Source: a virus. From it: 38,230 nt of DNA. The first letter of the stretch is position 1; the number at the start of each line of letters is the position of its first letter. Where the stretch lies: IMG/VR virus record IMGVR_UViG_3300023109_000053, positions 1 to 38,230 of that record; one strand, written 5' to 3'. The notes below the pieces were generated by a model, which ran no database searches, was not told where the DNA came from, and saw only the letters and a list, made by a program, of their open reading frames with translations. The position numbers and the translations under genes are program-made. Shown piece by piece: positions 5,298 to 21,255 of this stretch.

Positions 5298-6629
5298 TTA
5301 AACTGTGCGGTATGTTATTCCACCAATCATTGACCAACCAGAGTCAACCGGAATAGTGATCCAACCAAGATTAGATCCACTTTGATAAAACTGCATAGCA
5401 GAGGCGCCATGAGACATATACGGTGATACTTGTGTTCTTCCAGAACCAAGCAAAAGACTATCAAACATGCAGGAACCCGTTACAATCCGCGAGTTCGTTG
5501 TACCTCCACCAAGAGCAGAGTAAGGTAGACCTGTTAAGTTTATGCTTCCTGTTGCGTTTCCCCCACTAATACCTATATACCATGTTAGATGTACTAGATT
5601 CCCTATTTTAGTGTAAGATCCTAATGCCTGGCCCATAGTAGAGGTGCCGCCACTAGATCCAATCGCCACCGGGGTCCAAGTACCTTCTTCGTAATCGTCA
5701 AAAAGTGCACCTGTTCCAGAAGCCCCTGTAGCTCCACTGTAGCCGCTGGCTGAGAAATCTATGCCGTGTCCACTAGCAAAAGATAGATTGCCGTTTGGAA
5801 TATCTATATTGCCACTAGTTTCATGAATCCGCATTCTCAGAGTAGAGCCAGATGTAAAAAACGCTATTGCTCCAGAGGTTGATTGGATATTAAGCGAACT
5901 CGCGCCGCCCCATGCTGTTGAGTTTTGATTTGCCCCCCAAATATAGTTCAGTGCTGTACCAGATTTTAACTGTTGTTGAGCGTATTGATCAGTTCCTGTG
6001 GAAGTATTTTCGAGAGTAAACATGTGATTAGAGCCTACCACATGCAACTTCTGTGCTGGAGCCGTTGTTCCAATACCAACGTTGCCTGCTGTATCGACTA
6101 CCATTCTAAACGCACCATTATCATTATCGTATAGATACCATTTATCATTCACAGTAGCTACAGCATCGTTTCCGACTCCAATAACATATTTATGTCCAGT
6201 ACCTCGTAAGCCAAAATCAGTATAATCTCCTGCAACAGAATTGTGTATTTCTAAAGTTTGTGCGGGAGCAATGTTTCCGATACCAACTTGGCCTGATGAG
6301 TCTATACGCATTCTTTGTGAGCCAGCTGTACCAAAAACCATTACATCAGGTGTGCTGTGGCTATAACCCACATAGCCTCGATAACGCTCATCGCCTGTAG
6401 TCCCATCAGCGAACATAAGGTAGCCAGTAGCAGTACCCGCCGCACCGACTAAAGTAATACCGCCCTCTTCTCCGTGTGCTACAACTAATTCTTTAGAATA
6501 GTAACTATCAGGCGAACTATTACCGATACCCACATTCTCACTACTATCAATAGTTATAGCAGTAGCATTAGAATTATCTACAATTCCAGGAGTGCTTCCC
6601 ATCTCTTTTGGTATTTTTATTAATGCCAT
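5298..6629 (-). CDS. Tail fibre B (443 residues)
   Basis: It starts MALIKIPKEMGSTPGIVD, then NATAITIDSSENVGIG, the same module as fibre C. Repeated RMRIDSSGQVGIG-type units follow, then a C-terminal fibre domain marked by YEEGTWTPVAIG and GSYTKIGNLVHLTWY, a head common in marine phage fibres and probably the receptor-facing part. There is no S74 domain. GGAGAACAACTAATG couples it to fibre A. After its stop come two inverted repeats, then the 89-residue gene. Confidence 0.88.
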   Translation of the reverse strand: MALIKIPKEMGSTPGIVDNSNATAITIDSSENVGIGNSSPDSYYSKELVVAHGEEGGITLVGAAGTATGYLMFADGTTGDERYRGYVGYSHSTPDVMVFGTAGSQRMRIDSSGQVGIGNIAPAQTLEIHNSVAGDYTDFGLRGTGHKYVIGVGNDAVATVNDKWYLYDNDNGAFRMVVDTAGNVGIGTTAPAQKLHVVGSNHMFTLENTSTGTDQYAQQQLKSGTALNYIWGANQNSTAWGGASSLNIQSTSGAIAFFTSGSTLRMRIHETSGNIDIPNGNLSFASGHGIDFSASGYSGATGASGTGALFDDYEEGTWTPVAIGSSGGTSTMGQALGSYTKIGNLVHLTWYIGISGGNATGSINLTGLPYSALGGGTTNSRIVTGSCMFDSLLLGSGRTQVSPYMSHGASAMQFYQSGSNLGWITIPVDSGWSMIGGITYRTV

Positions 6630-9600
6630 TAGTTGTTCTCCAGTGCTGTTAGTCTTGCTTCTAATTCTTGTATTGTTGCTACCAGCAGAGGCACTAGTTT
6701 GCTATGGTCAATGCCTTGGTATTCTGGGTTACCGTCTGCATCTACTGCGTCTTTAGTGCCAACAACTGCCTCTGGTACAACGTCTGCAACCTCATGTGCT
6801 AGGAATCCGTCTACCGTGGTATTTGCATCTGCAATGAAATTAAACCGTGAAGGCTTGAGTTGCAGGAGGCGCTGTGTAGCACCTGTTATACCTACCACAT
6901 TTTCTTTTAGTCTGTAGTCTGACGATTGTACTATAACAATACTGCTTCCGGTTGTATAAATTTGACCACAAAGCCCGTTAGTGTTATAGAAAGCATGGTG
7001 AGTTAGAGCATTTGTTCCCCCAACAGCTGTAGCAATAAAGCCATAACCGCTAGCAACACCGCGATAAGCAAATCCAGTTTGTGAAGCACCTGGGTTAACC
7101 CCCGCTGATCCAATGAAGACATCACCACCGGAGTTTATGCGCATGCGTTCTGCTATCGCAGGACTTGCTATAGTACCGTTATTTGTACTAAATACAAGAT
7201 CTGCTTTAGTTCCAGCACCTCCAGCGGCTTCGTTCCAACTTCCAACTTTTTGAACTTCTATTTTGGCAGCTTGTCTGTGAACAACGCCAGTACTAGTACT
7301 ATAAGAGCATAGTTCATAAGATAAACCGTGTTTTATGTTTGCGTCATTGTTTCCATTAAAACCAACCCCACTTCCATCAAGTTTTAATATTAATTCATCA
7401 GCAATTGCTGAAGAAGCATCTATTTGTAATCTATTACCCGGCGAAGTTGTTCCAATACCAACGTTAGAGCCTGAAATTCGCATGGTTTCGCTTGTGTTGG
7501 AGCCACTCATTGTATGAAAACTAAGCTCAGAGGAAGTGTTGTCCGCTTGTGCCTCTGAACGTATTTGTGCGCGTCCACCTGTTCCAGCAGTCAAGCCTAT
7601 TATTGCGTCTGTTGCCCCTGTGTCTTCTTTAATATCAAGCAAAGTAGCAGGCGAACTCGTCCCGATTCCCACGTTGCCGTTGTTATCCACATGGAGTGGA
7701 ACAGTGTTGTCAGTAACATTGTGAAGAGAAAACCCTGAGTTTGCTACACCCGGTATAGAAGGTGTCAAATCCCATACCTTAGCGTTCGCTGTATTTTGGA
7801 AGCGTACAGACGCAAGGTCATTACTGAAATTTAAATGCAAACCCTTACTAGGACTGCCAGTACCAATACCTACCTTGCCTGATGACCCCTCCACAAACAG
7901 CGCATGGGTGTTAGCGTCAGACTCAACGCGGAAGTCTAAATCTGTGGAACCTTCATTAAAGACAGTTTCTGTTGGATTAAGCAATAATTTAGAAGTGCTT
8001 GTTCCGGCGGTCATAGTGTAAAACTCTACTGACCCATCCTCTGTTCCATCGGTCATGTCTTTTATTTGCGTAAAAACTTGCCCATACGCTATTTTTTCGC
8101 TGGCATCGTTTTCGCCATAAAAGTAAATAAGTCCAGTCGCATCGTTATCTGCCGGAGAAGCTGAATTTCTAAAAAACTCTAAAACAGGTCCAGCACTTGA
8201 ATCTGCGTCTGTAGAGACAAGAGTAAGATTACTAGAGTTATCTGTAGTAGTAGCTGTGATACCACCCGTTACTGCAAGAGTCCCGGGAGTAGTTAAATTA
8301 CCGGAAAGTTTAGCAGATGTAATACTATCATCAACAGGAACATTAACGTCCAACTGATTCATTGTCATACATTCTACGAGAGCACCCGTTGGAGGAGCTT
8401 CGCTAAAAGTTAATGTAGTCCCTGATATACTATATGTCGATTTATTTTGATATACACCGTTTACAAATACTTGTGTATTATTCTCATTGACTGGGGCAGC
8501 TGATAAAGTTAGAGTAGTATCGCTACCGTCACCAGTCATAGTGTTAGAAGTTAAGTTAGTTCCATTTACTGCGGGCGATAAACGATAGATAATAATACTA
8601 TTACCGTTTGCTGGAGCGGCAGAAAAAGTTAGTGTAGTAGTACCGCCAGAAGTAGCAATACTAAAAGCATTTTGCTGCTGAAATACACCCTCTATAAATA
8701 CTAGTAAATTGTCTTCTGAAGCTGCTGGGGTGGTGAGAGCATAAGCTGTAGTGCTGCCATTTCCTGTAAAGTTATCTGCAGCGAAAGAAGCTGCACCGCC
8801 TCCCCCAATTTCTCCCCAAGCATCAGTATACCCTTCAAACTTGCCGAGAGTACTATTGTATCGGAACTGTCCAGCGACTGCGGTAGGTCGTTGCGCTGTA
8901 GTACCTGCAGGCATAACAGCGGCGCCCGTATCAGCAGTCTTACTTACTCTTAAGCCAAGAGCAGTTGCTGTAGTAGCAGCAAAGTTTGCATCATCGCCTA
9001 AAGCTGCTGCAAGCTCGTTAAGAGTGTTTAAAGTGCTAGGAGCTGAATCCCCTAGAGCAGCAATTGCCACATCTACATAAGCGGTAGTAGCAACTTTAGT
9101 ACTATTATTACCTGCAGACTGGGTTGTTGCTGTGGTGGCAGTATTGATTGTGCCACTTAAATCACCTGAGAAAGTAGTAGCTGCTGCTGCGCCTGTAATA
9201 GTTACACCCGTTGCGGAAGTAGCAATCTTAGCGGCGTTATCATGATAAAGAGTAACAGCACCGTCGACTACAAAGCTGGCCATCGTTTCTGATGTACCTT
9301 TAGTGATATCTACTTGATTATTACTGGAGATTTTTAAGTTACCAGTACCAACGTCTTTAACGTAACTATTACTGGCATCATGGAAGATTTCTAAATCACC
9401 AGCATCTCCTGCGGTAAGTTTAGTATTATCTGGTAAATCTATAGTTGCGGCAGTATCTAATGTGACTGAGCGTCCTGATATTTCTACTTCTATTGCTGTT
9501 CCATTAGGAGGAGCAGTCGAAAAAGTAAGAGTAGTTCCGCTTACACTATAGTTTGATTTTGACTGATATACACCATCTATAAAAACACGGGTGTTATTCT

Positions 9601-10093
9601 CGTTGTCAGGATCTAAAGGCAGAGTATACGCAGTGGCAGTACCGTTGCCACTTAAGGTAGCTACAGATACATTGCCCTCTCCGATTTTCTTTTTAAAGGC
9701 AATAACTTGTAAAAAGTCACCCGTTGTAGCTGCTTCTGCCAGTACCACGCTTACGGAATTATTAGCTGTATAGTCTATACCGTTATCTAGTAGAACACCA
9801 TTCAGAAAAACTTGAACTGCGCTCGGCGTATAACCAAGCTGTACACTATTATCGTCGCCCCCGCTAAAGCTAGTTTGATTATTGGTTGCAGTAAACTGAT
9901 ACTCTACCATGATGGCATCGGCAGGTGCCGCAGCACTACCAAGCTGTACTACGGACTCCACACCACTGACACTCTTTTTAATGTAAGCTTTGCCGTCTAC
10001 GGTATTGATACCGATTTCGCCCAGATCTAAATCTGAGGTAGAGGGTATTCGACCAGCAACTGCTGATCGTTTTAATTTAATAGTTTGTGCCAT
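6629..10093 (-). CDS. Tail fibre A with C-terminal S74 chaperone (1154 residues)
   Basis: This is the longest fibre gene. It starts MAQTIKLKRSAVAGR and GEIGINTVDGKAYIK, as in fibre F, then carries repeated adhesin-like units (FTGNGSTTAYALTTPAA, and two copies of an SGTTLTFS..PP.G..VE unit), a TTQSAGNNSTKVATTAYVD fibre motif, and several VGIGT..P repeats. The end, from residue 1057, is a Peptidase_S74 intramolecular chaperone (SSDYRLKENV) with catalytic Ser1058 and Lys1063, a trimerisation and self-cleavage module, closing with a leucine-rich coiled coil (LLVATIQELEARLTALENN). AGGAGG precedes the ATG. Its TAA overlaps the ATG of fibre B by one base. Confidence 0.92.
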   Translation of the reverse strand: MAQTIKLKRSAVAGRIPSTSDLDLGEIGINTVDGKAYIKKSVSGVESVVQLGSAAAPADAIMVEYQFTATNNQTSFSGGDDNSVQLGYTPSAVQVFLNGVLLDNGIDYTANNSVSVVLAEAATTGDFLQVIAFKKKIGEGNVSVATLSGNGTATAYTLPLDPDNENNTRVFIDGVYQSKSNYSVSGTTLTFSTAPPNGTAIEVEISGRSVTLDTAATIDLPDNTKLTAGDAGDLEIFHDASNSYVKDVGTGNLKISSNNQVDITKGTSETMASFVVDGAVTLYHDNAAKIATSATGVTITGAAAATTFSGDLSGTINTATTATTQSAGNNSTKVATTAYVDVAIAALGDSAPSTLNTLNELAAALGDDANFAATTATALGLRVSKTADTGAAVMPAGTTAQRPTAVAGQFRYNSTLGKFEGYTDAWGEIGGGGAASFAADNFTGNGSTTAYALTTPAASEDNLLVFIEGVFQQQNAFSIATSGGTTTLTFSAAPANGNSIIIYRLSPAVNGTNLTSNTMTGDGSDTTLTLSAAPVNENNTQVFVNGVYQNKSTYSISGTTLTFSEAPPTGALVECMTMNQLDVNVPVDDSITSAKLSGNLTTPGTLAVTGGITATTTDNSSNLTLVSTDADSSAGPVLEFFRNSASPADNDATGLIYFYGENDASEKIAYGQVFTQIKDMTDGTEDGSVEFYTMTAGTSTSKLLLNPTETVFNEGSTDLDFRVESDANTHALFVEGSSGKVGIGTGSPSKGLHLNFSNDLASVRFQNTANAKVWDLTPSIPGVANSGFSLHNVTDNTVPLHVDNNGNVGIGTSSPATLLDIKEDTGATDAIIGLTAGTGGRAQIRSEAQADNTSSELSFHTMSGSNTSETMRISGSNVGIGTTSPGNRLQIDASSAIADELILKLDGSGVGFNGNNDANIKHGLSYELCSYSTSTGVVHRQAAKIEVQKVGSWNEAAGGAGTKADLVFSTNNGTIASPAIAERMRINSGGDVFIGSAGVNPGASQTGFAYRGVASGYGFIATAVGGTNALTHHAFYNTNGLCGQIYTTGSSIVIVQSSDYRLKENVVGITGATQRLLQLKPSRFNFIADANTTVDGFLAHEVADVVPEAVVGTKDAVDADGNPEYQGIDHSKLVPLLVATIQELEARLTALENN

Positions 10094-13460: not shown

Positions 13461-13982
13461 TTATTCTCCTGCGTCAAAAAAGAAGGTCTGAAATAACCTT
13501 CCTGTTTCTTTGCTTGTACCAAATCCAGCTAGTACACTTCTGTGAAAAAGCTTGCCGTTATATAGTACAAGCCTGTTAAATATATTTCCTATAAAATTTG
13601 TTTGAGTCCAGTGCTCTAAGTTATTACAGTCTGGCTTATCTACTTTGGAGTCATAAGTTGCTGTTCCACTTTCTATAGGTGCATCGGGTGTTAGAAATAA
13701 AACCCCAGCCCATTCAGTAGAGTCACTATGAATCCAAGTAGAGTCTTGTACAGTAGTATATTGATAACAAGTATTGTATTCATTATTCCAGTTAAATAGT
13801 TTTTTATGTACTATTTCTTTCTCAAAGAAATCTTTTAAATAAGTACTTTGCTCTGTAGGCTCCGGTAATGATCTGCGCCCGGGATAGTTTCCTAAAGTAT
13901 CATAGCTTAAGCCGAGTGCATGCTGTCTAACATCTTCTGGATTATTATAAAAATCATCTATTACTATAATATTTGTTTTCAT
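13461..13982 (-). CDS. DUF6445-type Fe(II)/2-oxoglutarate oxygenase-like protein
   Basis: The start is taken at ATG 13980-13982, overlapping the upstream stop as ATGA, giving 173 residues starting [12 protein letters not shown]. The sequence follows the DUF6445 pattern: IDDFYNNPEDVR, GNYPGRRS, CYQY, then WIHSDSTEWAGVLFLTPDAP. The iron ligands of a double-stranded beta-helix oxygenase are visible as H85-x-D87 and the distal H157 (LFHRSV), with R172 as the probable 2-oxoglutarate-binding arginine. Members are common in phages and are thought to be hydroxylase-like, with substrates unknown. It lies 13 residues-worth of coding context from the tip gene in one coupled unit. Confidence 0.75.
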   Translation of the reverse strand: MKTNIIVIDDFYNNPEDVRQHALGLSYDTLGNYPGRRSLPEPTEQSTYLKDFFEKEIVHKKLFNWNNEYNTCYQYTTVQDSTWIHSDSTEWAGVLFLTPDAPIESGTATYDSKVDKPDCNNLEHWTQTNFIGNIFNRLVLYNGKLFHRSVLAGFGTSKETGRLFQTFFFDAGE

Positions 13983-14719
13983 ATGGTGAAGTCCGGAGTT
14001 GTGGTATTTAAAGGATGTGCCCATTTTGCGTCTGTTTTTGGAGAATCTTTCCAGTACTCATCAGGATTTGTTGTCGAGTACTCACCAAACGTTGCTATTC
14101 TATTGTATATTCCCATCATTTTACTCTGTGTTGGACGCTCTGCGCTTTGAACATACTCCCCAGCTGCCTCATTATAAAAAACGTTTTCATTCTGAGCAGG
14201 AGTTACATCACTCATATTTTGCCAATTTTTTCTTGCTCCTGGGCTTCCATGCCTAATCTTTACTTTTATTTCAGAATGAACGGATGTAAAGTATCTTGAA
14301 CCGTGATACTGCATGGCACCCATATACTTGCTATGTTTCTGTCCTCTGAGTTCTGGAGCCACTACATGTCCAACATTGGTTACGTGCTTAACTCCGTCAC
14401 TATCAATATAGAGCTCTGTTTCCGAGAAGCCTAGATTTACACCATCTACTTTATATAAAGTATAATTAAAATGAGTTGACTCTGGGCTGAGATTTCTTCC
14501 GTAAAATAAAGAAGTAATAAAATTCTTATCAAACATGTAAGCTAAATCCCTTTTTGTAATATCTTCTTCAGCTTTACTGAATGCTTTATAGCCCCACTTC
14601 ATATTTAGAAAGAAATCTCTTTCTGTCCACGGATACTTTTCAGCACTATAAACTACCCCCTCAGGGGTAGTTAAAGTAAGTGCATAATCCTGTATTATAT
14701 CTGGTATATTTAAGTCCAT
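13979..14719 (-). CDS. GNAT-like acyltransferase (tentative)
   Basis: The 246-residue protein has a segment resembling GNAT motif A: a strand ([10 protein letters not shown]) followed by [16 protein letters not shown], residues about 120-136, where the R-G-Q/x-x-x/H turn would hold acetyl-CoA phosphate. Upstream strands ([20 protein letters not shown]) fit the GNAT core. N- and C-terminal parts are not recognised. Acetyltransferases transfer an acyl group to an amine; substrate here is unknown. It overlaps the tip gene by ten bases, and its TGA overlaps the next ATG (ATGA), so it is made with the tip and the oxygenases and might modify the tip or a host target. Confidence 0.5.
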
Positions 14720-17700
14720 GTTAGTACCTTGTAGTTTATTCCTAATTCTTGATAATTTACTGTGTAATATCCTGCATCATCAATAGATACGAGATCGGGT
14801 CTTGTCTTAATAACCTCTTGGGCTATAACTCCTATGGTTGGGCCTGCTATCCCTAAACTATCCGCTAGTTCATTCCAATCCCAGGAGTATATATTTTGTC
14901 CCTTAAACCATTTTAAGAATTTTATATTTTTCTTTAGTCGTACATCACTGCTCTTATTATGAACAACAAAAGAGTTTGCAGTATAAGTACTTGTTCCATC
15001 TGTAGAAAGATTATATACTGTTTTTTCGCTCTCTTCTAAAGGTCTCTTGGTTAGAGCAGACAAAACTTCTTCGCCTCCTTCATCTTTTATTAAAATATCT
15101 CCAACCTGTAACTTTCCTACAAGTATATCTGCTACTTCTTTTCCGTCAATGATTGATGTTAGCTCGGGATCTACAGCTTTCCATCCGTCTTTTGTTAAGA
15201 ATGGGTGATTTGCAGTAAAGAAGGGCTCTTGTTCATTAATACCATATAAATCGTCAAACGGAAACTCAACAGACTCATTTTTGAGAACGGTATTAATACT
15301 ATCATTTTCACCCCTAACTTTATCTCCTGCCTTTACGTCCACAATATTTTTAAAGCTGCCATCTTGCAAACAAACAGGAGTACCTGCAATAAAACATCCA
15401 ATAGGGCCTATATCTATATCAACATAATAAGCAACACATGAGGCAGAAACATTATTGTACTTCATAGAACAAGTAGCTGCAACACTATTTTGACCGTTTC
15501 TAGTATTTGTCCAACCTGAAGGAGCAGTGCTTGCCCAACTTACAGTATCTGCAGTACTGGCAGAGCTAGCTACAACTGATGCCGTACTTGTTGTAGTTCC
15601 AGTTTGTCGTGTCCACGTAACAGTTTGGCTTGAACTTCTATTTGCAAAAGTTACACTGCTTTTGCTTGCTGAAACGGCCGTTGGAGATACTCCGCTAGGT
15701 CCTGGGGGGCCCTGGGGTCCTTGTGGTCCTTGACCGCCTGGAGGTCCTGGATTACCGGCACCGCCTGCAGGTCCTAAGGGACCGGCCGGCCCATTTGGTC
15801 CTTGTGGTCCTTGTGGGCCCGCGGGTCCTTGAGCTCCTGCAGGGCCTGTTGCGCCTTGGGGGCCCACTGGTCCCGTGCCTCCAGCAGCACCAGAAGGTCC
15901 TGTAGCACCTGTAGGGCCGGTATTACCTTGTGGTCCTTGGGGTCCCTGGGGACCAGGGGATCCTGTAAGCCCTTGAGACCCTGTAGGGCCTGTGGGGCCC
16001 TGATTACCTTGTGGACCTGTAGCTCCTGTTGGCCCTGTTTGTCCTTCAGTAATTAAAGGATCTCCAAAGCTGCCAGAGACTAAAGCAGTACTATTTAACG
16101 CTGTACCTATAATAGTGTGTGTTACACCCGTCACCCCGCCAGATATTTGAGTTGCATTTGCAAACCAACGGCTAGAAGTTTGTTCATCTACTGTGAACCA
16201 GTACCCTTGAGCTCCATTATAAAAAGTGGGGGTAAGCTTGGTCATATCAGATACCGCAGAGCTGCCCCCTGCAAATACTTGAACCCAAAAAGAAGTATCT
16301 GACTGAGGAACAGTGCTGCGACCAGTATGTGCCTGAGTAGCTGCCCAAACTTTACTACTATGCTGTATTACACTGCCTAGCGCATAAGTACCTCCGCTGG
16401 ACCAGTTTGATATAGAAGGGCTGTTATCGAGAGTTGTTCTCGCTGCTCCGTTATAGAATAAGAACGCACTTAACCCATCAGGTCCTGCTGCGCCTGCGGA
16501 ACCTGCTGCTCCTCCCGGGCCTTGAGCTCCGATGACTCCTTGTGGGCCTGTAGCACCTGTAGGGCCTGTAGGACCCCCTGGCCCTTGAGCACCAGGAACA
16601 CCCTGTGGACCTTGCTCTCCTGGGGCCCCGTCGGGACCAGGAACGCCTTGAGCGCCTTGTGGTCCTTGGATACCGCGCTTGCTCTTTGTTATAGTTTGAA
16701 CTCTCTGATAGGTATTAGCTCTACCTAAACTATCTGTTACAACTATAGTGAAGCTTACTGTGCCGACATCCTGAGTGAAGCCTGTAATTTCACCCAATGC
16801 ATAACTATTAGTTCCTATAGTAGGAGTGCTATCTATAGTTACGCCTGTTGAGGCTACTACACTCGTTACTCTGAAAGAAGGCTCCGTGTAGGGAGCTGTG
16901 CCGTCATAAGGAAGCTGAACATCTCCTATAAAAGCTGTAATGGTGGTGCCTGAGTTAGCAAATGAAGAAACTACTCCGTTTGCTTGTGCAATTATAGAAA
17001 CGTTATCATTAGTTAAATTTACTACAGGCGCATCTTGCGCTCCGTCTGATACGCCAACTTGTCCACCAGTCGCACTCGCAGGAAAATAAGTAGAGAATAC
17101 TTCTCTAGGAGCTACTCCTGAGCTTCTTTGACTAACTACCAGAACTGCGTATCTTACCCAATAGTAAAAAGTTTGCTTACCCGCACCTGTTACAGCGTCT
17201 GTAAATACATCTCCCTTTGAAATGCCAACAATTTTAGCATTAGACCTATTATTATCGTTAGATCTCCAGATCTGAACACTATAACTAGCTGGATTAAATT
17301 TAGTGATATTAGTCCAGCTAAGAGCGATGCCGCCTCGATCAGTTTGAGTAGCGGAAAGATTACTAGGAGCTGCCGGAGCTGGTAGATTTGCTGCTATGCC
17401 TTCTACTGCTACGATATCTCCTGGGTTATCGGCTTGAACTATGTAAGCATTCTCTTCGTGCTCTTCGGCGGTAACTTGTACTAAACAATTATTTTTAAAG
17501 TTTAAGTTAGTGATTCTAAAGTACTTATTAGTCCAGCCGAATCTAGGATGAGTTATTCTTATAACATCACCTGCAACTAATAAAATAGCCCAAGGTCCTA
17601 ATGTGAAGTTAATCTTAAGGCCTGCTCTAGATTGGTCTAAATATTGTTTAGCGTTTACTCTAGCATTGTAGTAATTAGTTACATAAGGGGAATCAACTTT

Positions 17701-20700
17701 GCCCTTCTTAGGAACCATTCTATCTTCTTTTAGATAGTTGGAATTAAATAGTACCACAGATCTTGGTTCAAATCTATTTTGAGGATCGTTTATATTAACG
17801 TCTACATGATTAAAAGTGCCTTTTTGACCTGCATCTTCTACATCTATACTACCTATTATGTCTAAGGCATTAATTTCATTTACTGCATAAGACTCACCTG
17901 CTGTGGAAGTATAAGAAGTAGCCCCGCCCGCCGCCGATTCAACGTCTAAAAAGTACTTACCGTTCGAGTATCGAATTAAACCATTGAAGTGCCCCAGCAT
18001 ACTGTTAATATTTGCAAATACAGGTCTTTTTGTATCAAGTACTACGTTAGTTTGGTGACGAGTAACCTCTCTTTGATTATGAGACTCCCATCCCATATAT
18101 CTCCAATACTTAACACTATCTGAATCATATAATTCATACCCAGAATTAAATAACTCGGAAGCAGTGTCATAAGACATTACTAGAGGATTTCCATCAAAGT
18201 TACCTATACCGGATCCTAAAGTAATAGTACTTGATCCACTACCTGAAACCTTTTCAAGATTGAAGGCGGTTACTACATTACTATTACTGTTAGCGCCACT
18301 TACTCCGTCCGCCGTTGCTTGGTATAAAGTACCTAGATTATAGTATAGTTCTCCGGTATAGAAGTATTTCCAATCTGCCCATCTATTACCAAGCTTTCCT
18401 ACTACGTCTGTAAAAGTAACTTGAGTTCTTGCAGTTCCATTAATTGTTACGGAAGAAACACTTTCCACAGTCCCTTGGAACAGTGTTTTTGAAGATACAG
18501 CATGTTTGTATACATCTCCTACGGTTATGGTTGCGGTAGTGCTAGATATAACTGTTACGTCAGATCTAGTATCGCACTTACGAGCTGCAGACAGGAAAGA
18601 ATCCATATCTAAATCGGCTTCTAAATCCAGACCCGCGCCATACCTAGAGCTGGTCATATAGTCTAAGAATTGAATTGCAGGGTTAATGCTTACTCTAATA
18701 TCATCGGCAGGAAATATCTTATAGGTATCTGAAGCTTTGGGAATATTATCATACTCCCATGCAGTATCTACAGTAGCAACTTTTGCTGAACCATTGTAAT
18801 CCGAAATAGTACGTCTTTGTACTGTTGTGCTACCATCTGCGTGTATATTTGTTAGCTCTATAGTTAAACCGTTATAGATATCATCAGTACTAGAAGCACT
18901 AGATGCTAGAGCTATACCGTCTCTTACAGTTACAAATTTATTTACAAGAGTCGAAGACCCTGTACCCGTACTGCCAAGACCTGAGATAACAGAACCTGAG
19001 TATGTAAACTCAAAACTGTTTAACCAATCAACTCCGCCTGTCAAGAAATTTCCGGTAGATGTTATTGATACTTTACGGCCTGCTGCTAGTGCTGCTTGAT
19101 ATGCTGCTGTTCCCGTACCTATATTGACTTCGGCCGAGTTATTATCGGAAGCTGCGGCTGCACTTGCTACTTGTCTCTGTAGAATCTCAGGAACTACGCC
19201 TGAGTTCTCAACGTGATTATGAGCTGCTACGTGATAGACTTTGCTACCACTTTGCATGTAAAAACTTGTTTCTGTAGTAGAACCTGTAGGATCACTAGCA
19301 AAGCGTACTCGTGTAGAAGTGGTTCCATCCATTCTAGTTAAAGTATATTTATCAGCAACAGTAGTAGTGGTAATAGTACTATTGTTACTAGTTTTTTTAA
19401 TAGTTACTGCTTCGCCTATATTAAACGAAGTAAGAGCAGTATCAGAAGACTCGTACCCTGCATGTTGCTCATAGGAATAATCATAATTATAGCATCTTAT
19501 TCCCTTACCCCTTACGACAAAATCTAAGGAAGGTATAGTTGTTTCACCTTCTCCAATTTCATAGTTTGCTACTACATACGCGGTATCTAGTAAAGCGTGA
19601 TTCGCTCCCCAGTAGTCTGCGGAGCCGCTGTAATACGTAGACCCTACTTTAAAATTACTAGCATTTTGTACGAGTACAGAGTTTGCTTTTTGCTCTGGCT
19701 TACCTGTATGTACAGTAAGACTCGCGGTCATAGGAGTGCTGAAAAAAGTAGATGTTTCATGGGTTAGACCAGAACCTTGGCTACTTGCGCCTCCTAAGTT
19801 AAAATTAGCTACAGGTAGATTTAAAGGCTCACTTCTAGCGTATGCTCCTCTGCCCTCTGAGTCCCATGTATTGAACCCTTGAGAAAATGAATGAGACAGT
19901 GCATTAAATGTTCCAGACCAACGATTCCTAGGTGTAAGAGTGTCCCCTCTATCCATTCGTCCGGAACAAAGTACGTCTATAGTGTTTTCAGATGTTTGGA
20001 CAGCGCGAGTATCAAAATCGTTAGAATCTATACATACTGAAGACGTGTCGTCCATGTAGATATCATAAATACCGCCTATCTCTCCCTCTGAGATTGCATA
20101 GGCCACAAAAACTTGTTTTGAGTCACTTGCTAAAGTGTCTACAAATACAGGTATGCTATCCAACTTATTTACACCATAAACCACGGGCAAATACTTTGCA
20201 TCTAGATTAAAGCGTAAATCTACTTCTCTGTCTACATCTACTTCGTACTCATAAGTTCTGTATTTCTTTGATCCTAACCAAGTTCTTTTCACAGTAGTTC
20301 TAATTCTACTTTCTTTAACCTGATAAGTAGAAACTAAATTAACAGCTTGCTCGCTATGTAAGAACCCTAAGTCAGTAGCATAGGACGGTCTATGAACGCT
20401 CTCTCTGTCTGGTCTATTATTTGCGTCTAAAGCTCTATGTTGGGCGTCAGAAGTAAGTCTACCACTAACTCTACTAAAATCTGACCAATGACTAGTGACA
20501 GACCACGACACACTGGCCGCAGAGGTAACATCATCAGTTAATTTTCCGGATGCAATTATACCTTTGAATAGTAGGTAAGGTTTGCCAATAATAAGTCCTT
20601 CAGAGTCTAGGTGCGCCTTATATACAAAAACATCTCTGTTTATGTAGCCGGCATAACTACTATCGCTACGAATATTTAGAATACCCTGAACTTCTGGACT

Positions 20701-21255
20701 ACAAAAATTTAAACTATAGACAACACCTGTTTCACTTGTAAGTGTGGACATACCTGTCACACTTGCAGTTTTATTGTCATTAGAAAAAGAGTTTATTCTT
20801 ATTTTTTTAGTATCATTATTACCGGAGCCACTTAGTAACTCTATTAAGTCTCCCTCTCTGAAGCCCGCTTCTACTAAATCTTGTGTAGCTGTAATGCTAG
20901 AAGCGGTTATATTTAGGCTAGTAATTAATGAGGTATTGAGAGCTGCAGCGGATACTTTTAAACTAATAGAAGACGTCTTAGCTTGAGTACTCTCTGACGT
21001 GTCCCCCACACTTATTAATTTATTTGCAATGTATGTTTGAGGTCCATTGTTATTATTTTGTACATCTTGTGACAGATCATCAAATACTATGTCTATAGAG
21101 CCGTCACTTATATAAGCGTAATCTGTTGCTTTACGGGCACTCTTGCCTCCTGTCGTTACGACAGGCTTTTCAAACTTAACAAGGTGTGCATACGCAAACG
21201 GTTCATTCTCTAGTAAAGAATCTACTAATCCGCTGTCTAAATCTCTTATTGCCAT
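14710..21255 (-). CDS. Giant tail-tip host-recognition protein with collagen, Hint and S74 domains
   Basis: The 2181-residue protein sits where lambda J lies. Residues about 855-875 ([19 protein letters not shown]) match the J-type tip hub, followed by hub strands to about 1285. A fibronectin type III domain spans about 1290-1375. Collagen-like G-X-Y repeats occupy 1528-1594 and 1738-1855. Between them, about 1605-1660, is a ChtBD3-like module (W..GGTY..GSVI..SSKVWAA...W). An Ig-like segment precedes Cys1954. Residues 1954-2100 form an intein-like Hint domain ([12 protein letters not shown] with His2017, FVVHN). Residues 2103-2181 are an S74 intramolecular chaperone with Ser2103 and Lys2108. 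It should sit at the tail end, bind the host surface, and process itself. It overlaps the GNAT-like gene by ten bases. Confidence 0.9.
14956..15396 (-). other. Intein-like (BIL/PT-type) Hint domain in the tip protein
   Basis: This segment encodes residues 1954-2100 of the tip protein. Block A begins CFIAGTPV with Cys1954, block B has TANH (Thr2014, His2017), and the end is [11 protein letters not shown] with His2099-Asn2100. At 147 residues there is no room for a homing endonuclease. The +1 residue is lysine, not Cys, Ser or Thr, which fits bacterial intein-like (type A) cleavage domains better than a splicing intein. Confidence 0.85.
15691..16044 (-). repeat. Collagen-like repeat tract 2 of the tip protein
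   Basis: About 39 consecutive G-X-Y triplets (residues 1738-1855), rich in GPQ, GPT, GPA and GAT. Such tracts form trimeric collagen helices and make stiff fibre shafts. The GC-rich DNA here contrasts with AT-rich surroundings. Confidence 0.93.
16474..16674 (-). repeat. Collagen-like repeat tract 1 of the tip protein
   Basis: About 22 G-X-Y triplets (residues 1528-1594). Several have proline in the Y position (GVP, GAP), the usual target of collagen prolyl-4-hydroxylases. Confidence 0.92.

Follow-up and report, generated by a model that had tools for sequence, protein, structure and literature searches.

An intein-like Hint domain next to an S74 self-cleaving chaperone in a phage tail-tip protein, predicted to be A-type BIL-like and part of a family with a basic +1 residue

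Peptidase S74 domains are always the last module of a protein and normally work on a trimeric beta-stalk that lies immediately upstream. In the ICA domain of MYRF the catalytic residues are S578 and K583, and the phage counterparts of this domain use a Ser-Lys dyad with an arginine that stabilises the oxyanion (PMC3742443). Another type of self-processing is found in the A-type BIL domains, which cleave at their His-Asn end (PMC7765530) and are represented among solved structures by a domain of Clostridium thermocellum (2lwy). For BIL2 (6y75/6tmm), a domain encoded in the BUBL1 polyubiquitin locus of Tetrahymena, formation of a K(epsilon-NH2)-C-terminus isopeptide bond has been reported (PMC8616854). 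In phages, helicase and terminase inteins (Vibrio, Gordonia and other phages) lie inside conserved enzymes and need a +1 nucleophile for splicing.

The window (38,230 bases, from IMG/VR) belongs to a marine phage and encodes a tail-tip protein in which a Hint domain directly precedes an S74 domain. The features of the locus are the following.

14710..21255, minus strand: tail-tip protein ORF of 2181 aa, with a J-like tip, two collagen-like stretches, a linker, Hint and S74
17506..17874, minus strand: Phage-tail_3 domain of the central tail tip, covering residues 1128-1250 (PF13550 above its cut-off at E 7e-7; central tail fiber J by phrog_31)
16468..16707, minus strand: first collagen-like GXY stretch, about residues 1517-1596 (PHROG stretches 1513-1605; sequence)
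15676..16053, minus strand: second collagen-like GXY stretch, about residues 1735-1860 (PF01391, E 5e-19)
15397..15675, minus strand: linker between collagen-like stretch and Hint, about residues 1861-1953 (dN/dS 0.35)
14956..15396, minus strand: Hint domain, residues 1954-2100 (family HMM, Foldseek, dN/dS)
15394..15396, minus strand: Cys1954, residue 1 of the Hint domain and predicted N-terminal nucleophile, start of CFIAGTPV (sequence)
15205..15216, minus strand: T2014-A-N-H2017, the TxxH of block B (sequence)
14956..14961, minus strand: H2099-N2100, the C-terminal His-Asn that closes FVVHN, with the Asn2100 codon at 14956-14958 (sequence)
14950..14955, minus strand: K2101-S2102 between Hint and S74 (basic +1 residue, the family signature)
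14713..14949, minus strand: S74 intramolecular chaperone/self-cleaving domain, residues 2103-2181 (PF13884; dN/dS 0.19)
14932..14949, minus strand: S74 catalytic stretch SDVRLK with S2103, R2106 and K2108 (MYRF ICA spacing; alignment)
13979..14719, minus strand: gene of 246 aa overlapping the 3' end of the tip gene (counterpart in a related phage)

Downstream of the tip genes, a DUF6445 protein is encoded at 13461..14024 on the minus strand (PF20043, E 1.5e-10). The same phage has a second S74 protein (6629..10093, minus strand), which consists of a T7-type fibre N-terminus, DUF4183 repeats and S74 and lacks a Hint domain.

A sequence-only reading of this locus had placed a Hint domain between Cys1954 and Asn2100, with TANH and FVVHN as further motifs, and these assignments and the coordinates 14956-15396 were exact. 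The domain comprises 147 aa without an endonuclease insert and is thus a complete mini-Hint that has Cys1, TxxH and, at its end, His-Asn. Curated profiles give it only weak matches. Of these, TIGR01443 (intein C-terminal region) alone exceeded its cut-off, and Hom_end_hint, Vint, PT-HINT and Intein_splicing all remained below theirs, PT-HINT (PF07591) reaching 20.0 bits against a gathering cut-off of 27.7. For this reason a separate profile was built from 14 diverse phage Hint domains, gathered from IMG/VR by the mid-domain motif T-x-[N/D/E]-H-P-F...G-W and leaving out the tip protein and its close relative L001, and it matched residues 1954-2102 at an i-E of 1.4e-42. In an AF2 model the Hint blocks had pLDDT values mostly of 86-97, with one loop region at 66-77, and confidence was low over S74 (about 55-64). 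The best solved matches in Foldseek were BIL2 (6y75, E 1e-10), the BIL domain 2lwy (6.6e-8) and the gp41-1 intein (2.6e-7); BIL2 was also the best profile match among solved chains (2.9e-13). The top viral fold matches, compared by fold and annotation alone, were phage proteins, among them the uncultured Caudovirales proteins A0A6J5M6E1 and A0A6J5QMR4 in BFVD, and some bear the annotation "Hint domain containing protein" or "Collagen triple helix repeat". A Hint domain in the tail tip, far beyond a chance match, is thereby confirmed.

By its sequence features, the tip Hint is a predicted A-type BIL-like domain of a phage family with a basic +1 residue. It has in common with 2lwy the fold, the length, Cys1, the block B TxxH, the C-terminal His-Asn, the lack of an obligatory Cys, Ser or Thr at +1 and the location in a variable, non-conserved protein region, here a cassette exchanged between two unlike tips. 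Unlike the A-type BIL domains, the phage family has an invariant basic residue at +1, lies in virion proteins, adjoins S74 in the present case and is known from sequence. The likeness to BIL2 extends to the arrangement of a Hint domain between independently folded domains, and lysine chemistry was reported for BIL2; the flanks of BIL2, however, are eukaryotic and ubiquitin-like, and the isopeptide formation reported for it is a candidate activity in the phage family. Homologues of the Hint domain were also found among the helicase and terminase inteins of named phages, but the tip carries Lys2101 where canonical class 1 inteins have Cys, Ser or Thr.

Directly behind the Hint domain, PF13884 (Peptidase_S74) matches residues 2103-2156 over profile positions 1-57 of 58 with 32.3 bits (cut-off 22). 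Of the profile families proposed in the sequence-only reading as a check, S74 was therefore recovered above its cut-off and PT-HINT was not, the Hint domain being captured by the phage profile. After Asn2100 the sequence continues K2101-S2102-S2103-D-V-R2106-L-K2108, and hence two residues separate Asn2100 from Ser2103, in line with the earlier view that Hint abuts S74. S2103 and K2108 form a Ser-Lys dyad five residues apart, which is the spacing of S578 and K583 in MYRF and agrees with the catalytic pair originally proposed, and the arginine is present as R2106. The motif SDxR[LF]KxNI was invariant in the other short (minimal) marine S74 domains that were aligned. With endosialidase ICA domains, the tip S74 thus shares the PF13884 match, the dyad spacing and the C-terminal position, whereas it is a short form and has a Hint domain directly upstream where those have a beta-helix stalk. 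The collagen-like stretches lie farther upstream, and a Hint domain in place of the beta-stalk could strain or block S74.

The Hint domain of the tip belongs to a group that was collected with a profile stripped of its Cys and His-Asn columns. The set comprised 70 distinct full-length domains (E <= 1e-10) after exclusion of one true-intein-like match. His-Asn was present in all 70 and Cys1 in every complete member; conservation of TxxH and GW is partly a result of selection by the search pattern, to which both belonged, and is not independent evidence. The residue after His-Asn was Lys in 66 and Arg in four domains, and when the set was reduced to 20 clusters at 70% identity, Lys was found at +1 in 18 and Arg in two, against a Lys background of about 10% and a variable +2 position. 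The ORF stops one to four residues past His-Asn in 17 of the 70 domains, 13 of them ending exactly in HNK*. Other members carry tandem Hint domains or a Hint just before another domain (HNK-PIAQSF in L165), and S74 follows in only two of the 70, namely the tip protein and L001. This Hint family in marine phage structural proteins is large and appears to have no curated profile of its own, and no description of it was found in the open-access literature, subscription papers lying mostly outside the search. Members with a basic +1 residue include L040, L043, L081, L082, L085, L116, L133, L145, L165, L169 and L174.

These counts bear on the meaning of Lys2101, which had been taken to argue against ordinary splicing and for a BIL type A-like domain. 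The A-type BIL character stands, as described above, but the lysine is no peculiarity of the junction, because Lys or Arg occupies +1 in 70 of 70 domains, most of them without S74. Neither does a non-nucleophilic +1 residue by itself exclude splicing, since BIL domains without a +1 nucleophile are reportedly still able to ligate. Similarly, the notion of two self-processing modules sharing one cut region holds insofar as Hint adjoins S74, but no joint mechanism is needed to account for it, because Hint domains of this family often lie at the very end of the protein (HNK*) and S74 is the last module, so that the closeness follows from the usual places of both. Overall, the earlier interpretation is partly supported.

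A single close relative of the tip, L001, was found on another IMG/VR contig, where it is located behind lambda-like tail-assembly genes. The two proteins are 73% identical over residues 1528-2181, and L001 does not share the tip's N-terminal half. In both phages a gene of 246 aa overlaps the 3' end of the tip gene, and its counterpart at this position in L001 (8735..9475) has 64.6% identity to it. Judged from the shared part, the next gene and the unlike N-terminal halves, the collagen-like stretch, linker, Hint and S74 have therefore been exchanged between unlike tips as one cassette, and the 246-aa gene probably moved along with it. This gene had no Pfam match and no relatives in named phages, and it may act as a partner of the cassette or modify it. 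A simple pairwise estimate between the tip and L001 gave dN/dS values of 0.15 (Hint), 0.19 (S74) and 0.35 (linker), the linker being the least constrained part of the cassette; purifying selection acts on Hint and on S74. In L001 the first Hint motif reads CFVARTPV, with Arg at a position that is mostly Gly. The linker had no relatives among named phages, and a scan of bacterial genomes with the whole module gave none either.

A survey of Hint-S74 neighbours, which had been suggested previously, did find the junction again in L001, but also showed it to be rare. The strict motif HNKxSDxRLKxNI occurred in two contigs among 2.9 million viral contigs, and an intact junction was recognised in only two tips, both with the same exchanged cassette. 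No further intact junction was detected in IMG/VR or in 84,980 genomes by scans with fixed motifs, spacings and codon choices, which fusions with longer linkers or altered motifs could escape. When HN (CATAAT codons) was allowed one to ten residues before S74, 30 contigs were obtained, and those read had a chance HN and no Hint. HN plus three residues before S74 gave one match, by chance, and the 84,980 genomes gave one chance match in a frame of 39 aa. Matches in Maribacter phages that seemed to span a Hint end into S74 were a beta-rich stalk without Hint. PHROG matches beginning before S74 were not counted as Hint-S74 fusions, similar matches to Maribacter tail proteins being stalk.

Another pair of proteins, L128 and L005, has homologous backbones (BLASTP 7e-16), with no relatives of the L005 backbone among named phages. 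L128 ends in an intact Hint domain with HNK*, and L005 (2562..4199, minus strand) contains ILIHNKWSDIRLKENI, which means that S74 follows right after HNK. This is suggestive of Hint and S74 occupying the same place on a related backbone. The first tail of L128 and the tail of L005 are apparently degenerate and Hint-like; an HMM search of the presumed degenerate Hint of L005 was not significant, and L005 was kept as only a possible second Hint-S74 fusion.

If active, the tail tip would mature through two self-processing chemistries that are unrelated and act at a distance of two residues from each other. Reading from the arrangement of the modules, we consider it somewhat probable that a tip with this cassette undergoes S74-guided trimerisation and self-removal of S74, followed by A-type BIL-like processing of the Hint ends, Cys1954 and Asn2100. 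We infer the trimerisation and the two cuts, as well as the sequence in which the cuts happen and the biological purpose they serve. Three copies of the tip would associate via the collagen-like region and the S74 trimer, whereupon S74 would sense folding and cut itself off before Ser2103. The tip would be left with the end ...VVHN-K-S, similar in kind to the ends that many members of the Hint family have by design. The Hint domain would then process itself at Cys1954 and Asn2100, and as a result the tip would be trimmed at Gly1953 or the thioester passed to an amine. In this view S74 resembles a detachable chaperone that was appended to a C-terminal Hint, because the cut before Ser2103 would leave HN-K-S and so restore a usual family end, as 17 of the 70 domains end one to four residues past His-Asn. 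The homologous pair L128 and L005 and the S74 fibre without Hint in the same phage speak for this proposal as well, whereas the Hint in the place of the beta-stalk, the Arg in CFVARTPV of L001, the low AF2 confidence over S74, the HMM result for L005 and the occurrence of the junction in two sequences with one cassette count against it. An active tip would be a compact test case for the order in time in which S74, as a folding sensor, and an intein-like domain act, and the purpose of the marine phage Hint family, whether trimming, ligation or cross-linking, could be tested with one small expressed fragment.

Cyclisation of Asn2100 might instead be the main cut and free S74 with an N-terminal Lys2101, in which case S74 would serve as a trimerising chaperone whose own cut is redundant or is blocked by the adjoining Hint domain. 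The His-Asn required for such a release is intact, and L005 keeps HNK before S74 though its Cys1 side looks degenerate, but the S74 dyad and its Arg are intact and constrained as well. Moreover, release of a C-terminal domain is not the general purpose of the family, because 13 of the 70 members would free one lysine as the C-terminal product, and we regard this course of events as unlikely.

Tails that look like degenerate Hint domains seem to be present close by among proteins of this sort, as in the first tail of L128 and in L005, and the Hint domain of the tip might accordingly have lost its activity and persist as a spacer or cap, with the tip unprocessed at the Hint ends and both modules structural relics. 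Against this stand the presence of Cys1 in all complete members and of His-Asn in all 70 domains, both recorded with a profile that omitted these columns, and the Hint dN/dS of 0.15, which make an inactive relic quite improbable.

By analogy with BIL2, the best structural match, the Cys1954 thioester might react with the side chain of Lys2101, or with a lysine on a different virion protein to which the tip would then be joined covalently, but this is very unlikely in spite of the prevalence of Lys at +1 over its background and next to a variable +2, as Arg, a poor nucleophile, at +1 in four of the 70 argues against lysine as an obligate nucleophile, HNK* proteins would yield merely a lysine-capped end, and the BIL2 nucleophile is located in the flanking ubl5 domain. 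A similarly small chance is given to the broader form, in which a +1 or partner lysine would join virion proteins by isopeptide bonds throughout the HN-[K/R] family and S74 would first align the trimer and then leave.

Other Hint-like sequences were seen alongside this family. Behind the first Hint domain, L085 (689 aa), L083, L102, L116 and others carry a second Hint-like segment (CFIKGTLITMADGT...GSHMV...), which has no final His-Asn and recalls B-type BIL domains. A separate Hint group (CFTADTRVW...VVHN[F/Y/M]) comprises L092, L095, L117, L161 and L178. The last part of these proteins resembles tape-measure C-termini, and tape-measure proteins of Ruegeria phages were matched; the single member of the group that was tested scores above the PT-HINT cut-off.
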